A DNA stretch of 64,000 nt from contig JAIQEV010000014.1 of assembly GCA_020073585.1 (NCBI GenBank), forward strand, positions 22,914 to 86,913, written 5' to 3'. Made by a program: the position numbers and the translations under genes. How positions within the stretch are numbered: position 1 is the stretch's first letter; each line of letters begins with the position of its first letter. This document shows, piece after piece, positions 4,865 through 8,778 of this stretch. The DNA is from Terriglobia bacterium. GTDB taxonomy: Bacteria; Acidobacteriota; Terriglobia; Acidiferrales; UBA7541. The notes beneath the pieces are model-generated. The model was not told the origin of the DNA and searched no databases. It saw nothing but the letters and a program-made list of their open reading frames with translations.

Positions 4865-4891
4865 CCCCCATCCCTCACCAGCGTCCGCGTA

Positions 4892-4951
4892 GGGGCACGG
4901 CACGCTTTGCTCCACACAGCTTGCCCCGGACAGCAGTCGGAGCCGTGCCCC
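4892..4951. repeat. Inverted repeat GGGGCACGGC / GCCGTGCCCC (10-bp arms), possible REP/transcription-end hairpin
   Basis: ggggcacggc at 4892-4901 and its exact reverse complement gccgtgcccc at 4942-4951, in the spacer just after the oxidoreductase stop. Confidence 0.55.
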
Positions 4952-5006
4952 GGCATGCACGAGCACGATTGCGCGATTATATACTTAATACAAGAACGGC
5001 TTCCTG

Positions 5007-5144
5007 CTATGCTCTGTTTGTGCTTGAGACCTTCTCCAACTCAACAATGTGCTTCTTGATGAGGATGTGGCCCTTTGGTTTGAACAGGTGCCGCATTGCC
5101 TCTTCGCTCGTCATGTCTTTCGGATGCTTCTTTTTCTTTGGCAT
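5007..5144 (-). CDS. Small 45-aa lysine-rich protein within the IS element, divergent from the transposase
   Basis: MPKKKKHPKDMTSEEAMRHLFKPKGHILIKKHIVELEKVSSTNRA. Its ATG (5144-5142) lies 10 nt from the transposase ATG; this is the internal start of the listed 86-aa ORF. Confidence 0.45.
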   Translation of the reverse strand: MPKKKKHPKDMTSEEAMRHLFKPKGHILIKKHIVELEKVSSTNRA

Positions 5145-5154
5145 AAGGTGATCT

Positions 5155-6072
5155 ATGGACGATATGAATCTAGTCGAACTTCTTGAAAAATTCGCAGACG
5201 ATGAAAAATGCCGCGCATACCTTGAGGCTCTGCGTTGGCCCGATGGCGCAATGTGCACACGGTGCAAGTCTGAGAAGGTCTACCGCATCCTAAAGCGCGA
5301 TCAGTTCGTCTGCGATTCATGCAAGTACCAGTTTAGCGCCACCGCGGGAACGATCTTCCATGATTCTCACCTGCCGCTCTGGAAGTGGTTTCTCGCAACG
5401 TACTTCATGGCCGAATCCAAGAAGGGAATGTCTGCCAACCAACTCAAGCGCACACTGGCCGTGAGCTATAAGACGGCGTGGTATCTCTGCCATCGCATCC
5501 GCAAAGCCATGCAGGAAGCGAATCCCCGGCCTTTGAAGGGCACAATTGAACTCGACGAAACTTGGATCGGCGGAAAGTGTCATTGGAAAAACCGCACCTA
5601 TCTCCGAAATAAGACAATGGCCCTTGATGCAATCGAACGTGGCGGACCTATCCGAATGAAGGCCGAGAAGCGCGGCAAGAATCCAAGCCAGAAAATGATC
5701 CATCAGTGGATTGCAAAAACTGCCGCGTCCAACGCTGAGAAACTTTACACGAATGAACATGCGGCTTACTTCAGAATCCACGACCACAACATCAAGCATG
5801 AATCGATGAATCACAAGGAAGAAGAATACGTGCGCGGGGATGTTCACACGAACAGCATTGAAAATGCTGGGTCTTTGTTCAAGCGATCCATCGTAGATTC
5901 CTACCATAAAGTCTCTGAGAAGCACTTAGACGCCTATCTCGATGAATTCAAGTGGCGTTTCAATAACCGCAAGAATCCGTATCTTTTCCGCGATACGCTC
6001 CTCAAACTAATTCAATCCCCGAATTTCAAATACAAAGAACTGACCGCGCAGCAGACCGAACCAGCGGCCTAG
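5155..6072 (+). CDS. IS1595-family transposase (zinc ribbon + DDE, ISXO2-like)
   Basis: N-terminal 'CTRCKSEKVYRI..RDQFVCDSCKYQFSATAGTIFHDSHLPLWKWF' zinc ribbon; 'GTIELDETWIGGK', 'YTNEHAAYFRI', 'VHTNSIENAGSLFKRSIVDSYHKVSEKHLDAYLDEFKWRFNNR' DDE region. Confidence 0.95.
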   Translation: MDDMNLVELLEKFADDEKCRAYLEALRWPDGAMCTRCKSEKVYRILKRDQFVCDSCKYQFSATAGTIFHDSHLPLWKWFLATYFMAESKKGMSANQLKRTLAVSYKTAWYLCHRIRKAMQEANPRPLKGTIELDETWIGGKCHWKNRTYLRNKTMALDAIERGGPIRMKAEKRGKNPSQKMIHQWIAKTAASNAEKLYTNEHAAYFRIHDHNIKHESMNHKEEEYVRGDVHTNSIENAGSLFKRSIVDSYHKVSEKHLDAYLDEFKWRFNNRKNPYLFRDTLLKLIQSPNFKYKELTAQQTEPAA

Positions 6073-6725
6073 ACTTCTAATGCTGAACACTTAATGCACG
6101 TCGTATACGACAGCCGCGCAAGTTCATGAATCGAACCAAAATAAATCGGCCTTTCCGTCCCATCTTCTCCCTGCTCTAGTCCGTAGCCGCAATCTCTCAA
6201 ACCCCTTTGAGTTTCTTTTAGAAAATACAGCCACCGATAGACCTGATTCGATTCCGAACGTATGGCTTCGGAAAGAGCGGCGGCTACATTCGCGGAACGC
6301 AGGAGCATTGCTCCCGCGAGTTGACACAGAGATTCACACTCCTCGATTCGTCCGCCGCAGATGCGCCACGACTCTATGCCGTCACTCCCTCGATCCCAGT
6401 CAGCTCTTATGTCACTCGGAAGTTTTTCAAACCGTGACGCCAATGCTTGCCATTCGGGGGCCACACGCAATGCGGCGAGAGAAATGTTCTGTGCTTTGAT
6501 TTCTGCTATTTTACTTAGCGCCTTCTCTTTTTCGTTTACCTGATCGTTCCACGCCTTGAAGAATGCAATGAAAAGACCTGCTATCGCCACAATCCAATAG
6601 ACCCATGGCCTTACTGGATGTCCTGTGCCTTGCCAGATACCAAGTACACCAATAGCAAAGCCGCCTGTCACAAGCACGCCCCAATGCTTGACAACGGCTT
6701 GGAGAAATTGAGAGACGCGGCGCAT
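6069..6725 (-). CDS. IS passenger gene: predicted inner-membrane protein with two N-terminal TM helices, unknown function
   Basis: 218-aa ORF inside the TIRs, convergent with the transposase (stop codons share the CTAG at 6069-6072). Hydrophobic segments VLVTGGFAIGVLGIW and WVYWIVAIAGLFIAFF. Confidence 0.75.
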   Translation of the reverse strand: MRRVSQFLQAVVKHWGVLVTGGFAIGVLGIWQGTGHPVRPWVYWIVAIAGLFIAFFKAWNDQVNEKEKALSKIAEIKAQNISLAALRVAPEWQALASRFEKLPSDIRADWDRGSDGIESWRICGGRIEECESLCQLAGAMLLRSANVAAALSEAIRSESNQVYRWLYFLKETQRGLRDCGYGLEQGEDGTERPIYFGSIHELARLSYTTCIKCSALEV

Positions 6726-6976
6726 AGCTCGAAATTATACACCTCTACTTGCGTCAGGTACATAATCGCGCACGATTGCCCCTCGGCCGGGAAGTTCTGT
6801 ATTGTCTTGCGCGTACAGCGAGGCGCCCACCCTCGGTTCTTGAGGCTAGGGGTTTTGCCTCCCTGCGTCGCAAACCATTCGAAACTAGTACCACTCAGTA
6901 ATAAGTATGGACACGCCATCCACGCCATGCTACCCTGTCGCCGTGACCCTCGCACCTCACCGCTCACCTCCTCTCC

Positions 6977-7008
6977 TTACCTCGTTACCTCATTACTTCT
7001 CTACCTCT
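6977..7008. repeat. Imperfect 8-bp tandem (ttacctcg ttacctca ttacttct ctacctct) in a pyrimidine-rich spacer
   Basis: Direct reading; four degenerate 8-bp units. Confidence 0.5.
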
Positions 7009-7033
7009 TCTCCCCGCTTCATCTCCTGCATTC

Positions 7034-7140
7034 TCAATAACTTGCGCACTCTTTTCTCCCACGGCCACCGCCTAACTCCTTTGCAATCAAGCACAACCGC
7101 ACTCTTTCCGTCGCCACGGCACCGGTACACCCCCTCCCCC
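7034..7140. repeat. Degenerate composite intergenic repeat (copy A), ending in GGTACACCCCCTCCCCC
   Basis: TCAATAACTTGCGCACTCTTTT (7034-7055) matches 45856-45877 at 20/22; core GGTACACCCCC at 7124-7134. Confidence 0.6.
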
Positions 7141-7332
7141 CTCCTCCCGGCTCACAATGAGACAAGAAAATGCGCCAGCCCTCCCCACCGCCATGCTTTC
7201 CTCTGTCACCACTCTTCAAATCATGAAACTTCCTTCCAATTTATCCGTCTTTACCAGAAGGGTGTTATTTTTGTGTCCCAGGATCCCGCCCGCATCACCG
7301 GCCATGCCCGATCGTCCGTTCGTGGAGGAAAC

Positions 7333-8778
7333 ATGCCATCGCCAGAGAGAAAATCCCGCTTCGCCTTGAAAATCCTCGCCGCGCTCGTGGCCCTCTGTCT
7401 GGGCGCCGCCGCGCCGGCCGCGGCCGCCCCGCCCGCCGGCGAAAAGGAGTTCCGCGTTCCGGTCGAGTACTTCAAGCTGCCCAACGGCCTGCGCGTCGTG
7501 CTCTCCCCGGACCACACCGCTCCCACCGTCTGCGTCGCCGTCTATTACCGCATCGGGTTCCGCATCGAGCCGAAAGACCGCACCGGCTTCGCGCACCTCT
7601 TCGAGCACATGATGTTCCAGGGCTCGCAGAACCTGGGCAAGATGGAGTTCATCAAGCTCGTCCAGCAGAACGGCGGCATCCTGAACGGCTCCACGCGCTT
7701 CGACTTCACCAACTATTTCGAGGTGCTGCCGGCGAACAAGCTGGAGACCGCGCTGTGGGCCGAGGCCGACCGCATGGGCGGCCTCGCCGTCACCGAAGAC
7801 AACCTCAAGAATCAGCAAGGAGTGGTCGGCAACGAAGTGAAGGTCAACGTGCTGAACCGGCCCTACGGCGGCTTCCCCTGGCTGGACATGCCGCAGTACG
7901 CCAATTCCAACTGGTACAACGCGCACAATTTTTACGGCGACCTGAAGGACATCGATGCCGCCACGCTGGTGGACGTGCGCTCCTTCTTCAAGACCTACTA
8001 CGCGCCGAACAACGCGGCGCTGGCCATCGTCGGGGACTTCGATCCGGCGGAGGCCAAACGCTTCGTCGAGAAATATTTCGGCGCGCTCCAGCCTTCGCAG
8101 CTCCCCGCGCAGCCCGACCTGACCGAGCCCAAACAGACCAAGGAAAAGCGCGCGACGAAGCCCGACCGCATGGCCAACCGTCCGGCTCTGGCTTTCGCTT
8201 ATCACCTGCCGGAGCGCAACACCCCGGAATACTACGCCATGGGCGTGATTGACCAGCTCCTGCTGCAGGGCGACGACAGCCTGCTGCACCAGGAGCTGGT
8301 GCAGAAGCGCGGGCTGACCGGCGACGTCAGCGGCGGAATCAACATGCTGGGCAACCTCTACGACTACAACGGGCCGATGCTGTGGATTGCCAGCCTCTTC
8401 TACGACCCCGCGACGAACCCCGACACCATCCTGGCCGCCGCCGACAGCGCCATCGACACGCTGCGCAGCAAGCCCGTGGACCAGAAGACTCTGGACCGCG
8501 CGCGCGTCAAGCTGCGCTCCGACCTCTACGACAACATGGGCTACCTCGGCGGATTCGGCCTGGCCAACCTGCTGGCGAGCTTCGCGCTCTTCGACGACAA
8601 CCCCGCGCGGGTGAACTCCCTCGCCGCGGAATTCCAGAAAGTCACTCCGGCGCTGATTCAGAAAACGGCGCAGGAATATCTGACCCCCGCGAACCGCACC
8701 GTACTGATCGTCGAACCGCAGGCCAAACCGGCGGAGACTCCCGCCAAAACCCCGGCCGCGCCGGCGAAGAACCAGTAG
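7333..8778 (+). CDS. M16 family zinc metallopeptidase (active-site subunit)
   Basis: HxxEH in 'FAHLFEHMMFQGS'; signal peptide from ATG 7333 (MPSPERKSRFALKILAALVALCLG). Confidence 0.9.
   Translation: MPSPERKSRFALKILAALVALCLGAAAPAAAAPPAGEKEFRVPVEYFKLPNGLRVVLSPDHTAPTVCVAVYYRIGFRIEPKDRTGFAHLFEHMMFQGSQNLGKMEFIKLVQQNGGILNGSTRFDFTNYFEVLPANKLETALWAEADRMGGLAVTEDNLKNQQGVVGNEVKVNVLNRPYGGFPWLDMPQYANSNWYNAHNFYGDLKDIDAATLVDVRSFFKTYYAPNNAALAIVGDFDPAEAKRFVEKYFGALQPSQLPAQPDLTEPKQTKEKRATKPDRMANRPALAFAYHLPERNTPEYYAMGVIDQLLLQGDDSLLHQELVQKRGLTGDVSGGINMLGNLYDYNGPMLWIASLFYDPATNPDTILAAADSAIDTLRSKPVDQKTLDRARVKLRSDLYDNMGYLGGFGLANLLASFALFDDNPARVNSLAAEFQKVTPALIQKTAQEYLTPANRTVLIVEPQAKPAETPAKTPAAPAKNQ

Follow-up and report, generated by a model that had tools for sequence, protein, structure and literature searches.

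The window analysed here, a stretch of 64,000 nucleotides, carries an IS1595-family element at 4972-6770, between two TSD copies (Table 1). The exact 8-bp TSD, the 23-bp TIRs (18/23 identical) and the length of 1,799 bp are as proposed in an earlier reading of the bare sequence (the sequence-only reading), and these boundaries are borne out by a chance test: in first-order Markov shuffles of the region, the best TIR pair accompanying an 8/8 TSD matched at 14/23 positions, and 0 of 200 shuffles reached 18/23. The direct repeat at both ends is actually a 10-mer, GCACGATTGC, and taking 8 bp of it as the TSD gives the symmetric phase. The window TIRs match the clade consensus CGGGATTATATACTTGACACAAGG, within which, at the left end, lies an inward -35 hexamer, TTGACA. 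Across the clade the -10 match at the left end scores 4.17 of 6, as compared with 2.7-2.9 at control positions, and the left TIR is predicted to supply the transposase promoter, with its -35 facing inward and the -10 at 17-bp spacing.

Table 1 Features of the IS1595-family element and its borders (window coordinates).
Feature	Position	Strand	Basis
Left TSD, CACGATTG	4964..4971	.	sequence; chance test by shuffling
Left TIR, CGCGATTATATACTTAATACAAG	4972..4994	+	sequence
Predicted transposase promoter: TTAATA (4985-4990, within TIR), 17 bp, TATGCT (5008-5013)	4985..5013	+	conserved position across clade
Accessory ORF, 45 aa, MPKKKKHPKDMTSEEAMRHLFKPKGHILIKKHIVELEKVSSTNRA, divergent from transposase	5007..5144	-	cross-validated HMM
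IS1595-family transposase, 305 aa, zinc ribbon and DDE domain	5155..6072	+	profile matches
Codon AAT (Asn200), second catalytic residue	5752..5754	+	alignment with relatives
Shared CTAG, stop codons of transposase and passenger	6069..6072	.	sequence
Passenger gene, 218 aa	6069..6725	-	ORF, hydropathy, homologue comparison
TATAAT box, 8 nt before passenger ATG, predicted promoter of leaderless mRNA	6734..6739	-	motif count in clade
Right TIR, CGCGATTATGTACCTGACGCAAG, inward reading	6748..6770	-	sequence
Right TSD, CACGATTG	6771..6778	.	sequence; chance test by shuffling

The assignment to the IS1595 family, also made in the sequence-only reading, is confirmed by the TSD and TIRs and by the profile scores of the transposase, which matches NF033547 (IS1595) with 182.3 bits (cut-off 75), PF12762 with 99 bits (cut-off 27) and, in its N-terminal zinc-binding domain, PF12760 with 51.3 bits (cut-off 25.4); the four cysteines of the zinc ribbon are at positions 34, 37, 53 and 56. 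D134 and E236 of the catalytic triad are intact. The second catalytic position is Asp in all 108 relatives having a residue there and Asn200 in the window copy, a replacement that had gone unnoticed when the transposase was first recognised. The element that had been called complete is thus so in structure and not in its catalytic triad, and since the second Asp has been replaced by Asn, the window copy is probably not self-mobile. Asn200 may be a recent loss or else an assembly error. In the transposase tree the window copy is placed among L081, L084 and L125, and no starred set contains it.

The 218-aa passenger ORF runs against the transposase, with the two stops overlapping in CTAG, and has hydropathy peaks at residues about 10-28 and about 38-56, in agreement with the two-TM protein described earlier; its predicted layout is two N-terminal TM helices, a helical linker and a C-domain of residues about 86-218. 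It has no Pfam or NCBIfam match at cut-off, and at E<=0.01 it matches 0 Pfam and 0 PADLOC families. An AlphaFold model of the protein alone, a check proposed in the sequence-only reading, turned out poor (pLDDT 55.6, pTM 0.31). The same reading had asked whether the passenger always travels with its transposase clade; it does not, having been found only in the window copy among 61 relatives and 396 genomes of the phylum. Its N-terminal module resembles those of L078 (23% over 115 aa), which adjoins an IS1595 transposase, and of L076, which directly follows a Type ISP specificity domain. The C-domain is also found in proteins from the genomes G201 (29% over 153 aa), G047, and, by profile, G503 (E 2.6e-27). 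The G503 homologue and an IS1-like transposase gene are convergent, their stops overlapping by 4 bp, and the homologue of G201 lies within a 4,025-bp IS1-like element with TSD GGCGACCC; both have the same C-domain behind N-terminal TM segments. The G047 homologue has no transposase nearby. Homologues mostly at conserved chromosomal loci would have spoken against the gene as a passenger, and what we find is that two of the three full homologues are beside another transposase family and none is at a shared chromosomal locus.

The window element is single-copy in its 4.03-Mb genome. In the nearest species (G009), whose flank is 91% identical to that of the window, the same flanking genes are present, the element is absent at the syntenic place, and a different 375-aa ORF lies in between. 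This absence lends weak support to the fairly recent insertion proposed earlier; no precise empty site was seen at the G009 syntenic place, where the intergenic DNA differs. Just left of the insertion, at about 4887-4950, is an intergenic palindrome, GTAGGGGCACGGC...GCCGTGCCCC, which has many matches in its own genome and in G008 and G009 and is thus a repeated intergenic element. Diverged copies of the right flank at about 6868-7335 (CGCAAACCATTCGAAACTAGTACCACTCAGTAATAAG... with a CTCCTTACCTCGTTACCTC stretch) occur at several sites of the same genome (G000) and of G009. The nearest same-genus elements, L006 (G027:C29) and L007 (G023:C77), both lie in a like intergenic repeat, with surroundings that read C-rich tract, TGTTTTTCATAAG, TGATTCTAA, GTT[AG]AAG, then the element, then GTTGTTTGTTTTGATAG; this shared setting suggests a preferred target.

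Relatives of the element and the content of their slot

Relatives were collected from 61 genomes, which were searched in full, and by scanning GTDB genomes (80 loci) with a transposase alignment as query, a single-transposase query having matched nothing. They were picked by transposase similarity, which suits a description of the clade rather than a census, and the sequence base is nearly all metagenome assemblies. Close transposases have 47-61% identity and come from 13 phyla by NCBI name. We delimited 41 elements from the 80-locus set (TIR 18-24/24, TSD 7-8/8), with lengths of 1,159-4,618 bp. As read from these loci, one element plan is shown to be shared by the transposase clade in about 13 phyla: it consists of a left TIR supplying the predicted transposase promoter, then a divergent accessory gene for 40-66 aa, the transposase, a passenger slot and the right end. 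One relative from Gemmatimonadota (L153; 1,159 bp, with its own TSD) has the small accessory gene and no passenger.

The limits of the slot can be seen in four pairs of elements with similar transposases (L089/L099, 91.5% identity; L092/L096, 88%; L098/L100, 87%; L122/L130, 92%). For L089/L099, L092/L096 and L122/L130, DNA homology covers the left TIR and everything up to the transposase stop and is then lost until the last 28-29 bp (29 bp for L122/L130), which are 96-100% identical; the break pattern of L098/L100 is similar. The passengers of L122 and L130 are only 29% alike over 111 aa. Because homology ends at the stop and resumes at the right end, these alignments show a passenger slot that opens at the transposase stop codon and closes at the last ~28 bp, and whose content has been replaced with the rest of the element kept. 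This bears on the possibility that the passenger is an accessory of transposition, anchoring the transposase or the DNA of the element at the membrane, or tuning transposase activity. Its constant position and orientation beside the transposase would fit such a role, and overlapping convergent stops could allow transcription of one gene to limit the other. However, passengers that differ wholly between transposases about 90% identical do not behave like a conserved partner, a bare element (L153) exists, and the C-domain is also found beside IS1-like transposases, all of which makes an accessory function unlikely.

The passengers are orphans in sequence. In an alignment of 47, made up of the window protein and 46 others from relatives, some of these taken from loci that were not delimited, mean column identity is 8%, and recognisable kinship is confined to a few pairs. 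Pfam gave 12 scattered, mostly weak matches to the 47, PADLOC no credible match, and PHROGs and PDB sequence searches with passengers nothing usable. What is common is architecture. Defining a two-TM class by hydropathy calls on size-matched ORFs (at least two TM segments within residues 1-100, none past 120), we find it in 29 of 55 passenger ORFs vs. 3 of 229 flanking ORFs at the same loci (OR 84, p=4e-21). The flanking control includes some spurious ORFs, and a second control was therefore added, the cargo of other-clade IS1595 elements, of which 4 of 55 ORFs belong to the class (p=2e-7). A two-TM passenger is present in 28 of the 41 delimited elements, from nine phyla, and is on the minus strand, convergent with the transposase, in 26 of these 28. 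The remaining 13 elements lack the class; some passengers are one-TM, plus-strand or without clear TM. Two-TM status is not clustered on the transposase tree. Overlap between the stop codons of transposase and passenger is common, and in many cases it measures 4 bp, as in the window; the passenger start codon is as a rule 41-67 bp inside the right end. What elements of the clade usually carry is thus a convergent gene for a protein with two N-terminal TM helices; the window gene, whose function was not recognised in the sequence-only reading, is two-TM as stated and, given the 28 of 41 relatives with this class, not a one-off.

This regularity also argues against random capture, i.e. the passenger as a host gene taken by chance via a distant right end and without a selected role. 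Cargo-bearing transporter IS are known (PMC3129680, PMC12888890), and the cargo of other IS1595 clades is very mixed. Random capture nevertheless does not predict one architecture (two-TM, convergent, start mostly 41-67 bp from the end) in 28 of 41 elements, given how rare two-TM ORFs are in the flanks. We disfavour this explanation and give it little credence. A TAnnnT box lies 5-9 nt before the start in 17 of 27 passengers, as compared with 4 among 42 starts of transposase genes (p=6e-6), and leaderless passenger expression is predicted from it.

The accessory gene is the third gene of the element and had been missed in the sequence-only reading, which had correctly identified the transposase and the passenger. 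HMMs trained on half the loci recover the 45-aa ORF family in 77 of 81 loci, every one antisense to the transposase, and the window ORF has a cross-validated E of 2.9e-14. Its pN/pS is 0.32 over ten pairs (range 0.09-0.54). This recovery, the invariant antisense orientation and the pN/pS show that the 45-aa ORF codes for a protein and evolves under purifying selection. It matched no Pfam or NCBIfam model. Its identity to the counterparts in the two closest elements of the same genus is 67-73%, higher than that of the transposase (57%). Because it is retained when passengers change, beside unrelated ones, and is present in the passenger-less L153, the protein most likely regulates or assists transposition. 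The same facts weigh on the idea that it serves as antitoxin to the passenger in a toxin-antitoxin or addiction pair, such that loss of the element harms the cell. A small charged protein and a membrane protein are indeed encoded in the same element, and cargo of toxin-antitoxin type is found in other IS1595 clades (PIN_10 with DUF433, SocA_Panacea), but the 45-aa family follows the transposase and not the passenger, being the same beside unrelated passengers and in the bare element, whereas a matched antitoxin is expected to vary with its toxin. Such a pairing is improbable.

Possible roles of the passengers

Our preferred explanation, and in our view a probable one, is that the element is a transporter IS of the IS1595 family whose passenger slot is exchangeable and mostly houses two-TM proteins; for these a protective or addictive role may tentatively be proposed. 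The slot mostly holds one convergent gene, encoding two N-terminal TM helices and a copy-specific C-domain. Each passenger would arrive with a -10 box of its own, a few nucleotides upstream of the start codon, allowing expression wherever the element lands, often from a leaderless mRNA. From the predicted topology, the two-TM hairpin would be an inner-membrane anchor with the C-domain in the cytoplasm, where it could sense a ligand or partner, the membrane part acting on that signal. The likeliest pay-off, which we put forward with some reserve, would be that the passenger guards the host cell against phages or rival elements, and with the cell the element residing in it, or else that it has an addiction-like effect.

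For a passenger family of related class (L108), AlphaFold gives a beta-sandwich C-domain at moderate confidence (pLDDT 64.4), and one passenger has a GAF-like domain; the modelled fold and this domain are compatible with binding of a ligand or partner. The Foldseek matches of L108 were limited to Ig-like ear/appendage domains of a general kind (best E 2e-3, TMq 0.27) and to Kir channels at low scores (TM about 0.24), and we accepted homology to neither. The membrane sensor-effector role, protective or addictive, is drawn from company, turnover and architecture and is a tentative assignment. Its defence component is inferred from company and turnover, 0 passengers matching a known defence protein. 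An earlier idea, that clade cargo is random or consists chiefly of known defence genes, was dropped after the two-TM enrichment and the passenger Pfam and PADLOC results.

The company in question comprises the two-TM relative L076 beside its Type ISP specificity domain and, in related genomes, cargo of defence or toxin-antitoxin type. The cargo of other-clade IS1595 elements there includes restriction-modification and other genes, namely N6_N4_Mtase with Mrr, C5 MTase with Vsr, AIPR and RelA_SpoT, and further SocA_Panacea, DUF433 with PIN_10, NYN, DUF3800 and P63C (elements L056, L060, L062, L066, L070, L045, L049, L048, L067 and L071, delimited by TIR and exact TSD).

Several other IS1595 elements have contents of their own. 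The genome of the window contains a second one, from another clade (L051, G000:C27:2505-3329; 2,110 bp, TIR 22/24, TSD CTTACAAA), with a 291-aa cargo protein that has no Pfam match. Cargo that by eye is proteasome-like (Ntn-hydrolase-like) occurs in L162 (99-734, minus strand), L037, L038 and L057 and resembles an ORF beside the G503 IS1-like transposase; a sub-threshold match to Pfam Proteasome was obtained for L037 only. The 4,011-bp element L043 has a tRNA-Pro (TGG) gene inside (1763-1852, ARAGORN). In L058, L071 and L078, from other IS1595 clades, the transposase is followed by a different small ORF with the pattern F..L...L..V.K.E, possibly another accessory gene.

If the pattern holds, the transposase clade, its 45-aa companion and the ends together form a marker that leads to dozens of orphan membrane proteins, which share architecture and position, not sequence, and are candidates for new defence or addiction effectors. 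It would also provide a natural system for passenger exchange in a minimal transposon. The family of the 45-aa gene, conserved across these transposons, has no Pfam or NCBIfam model. These data suggest that the lineage provides membrane sensors or effectors in mobile form. More speculatively, and as a possibility that we hold loosely, a cross-phylum clade of tiny transposons might be shuttling a large number of two-TM sensor-effectors that have so far escaped recognition and that probably act against phages or rival elements; these would be replaced in a fixed slot, come with their own leaderless promoter and be carried by IS1-like elements too. We found no report of this passenger class in the open-licence literature.

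Comparison with known systems

The IS1595 family was reportedly treated by Siguier, Gagnevin and Chandler in 2009. The window element has the transposase domain, zinc ribbon, 8-bp TSD and short TIRs typical of the family, in which the zinc ribbon is N-terminal and passenger-bearing members are known (PMC8101967). Members are usually described with a single gene, to which the window element adds the divergent 45-aa gene and the exchangeable slot; unlike the family, the window copy is missing the second catalytic Asp. A parallel in the notion of cargo is the transporter IS (tIS), such as tIS66 ISPa75, which carries fosZ (PMC12888890; PMC3129680). In both, the TIRs enclose an extra gene downstream of the transposase, here the 218-aa ORF. 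In a tIS this gene is dispensable for transposition; among the relatives of the window element, L153 lacks a passenger. However, fosZ is a recognisable resistance gene, whereas the slot of this clade mostly holds unrelated orphan two-TM proteins. Tn7-like transposons carry defence cargo (PMC8649781) and, like the clade, combine variable cargo, in their case often defence-related, with a conserved transposition frame. They are much larger and rely on a multi-protein transposition machine, as opposed to one transposase, usually one passenger and no proven defence gene in the clade.

Some defence effectors, e.g. those of CBASS, likewise place a soluble sensor or effector domain after two N-terminal TM helices. 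The likeness to the passengers, which have neither a PADLOC match nor a partner nucleotide cyclase, is architectural only. Finally, the IS1-like elements of G503 and G201 share the C-domain with the window element and differ from it in having an IS1-type transposase and different ends.
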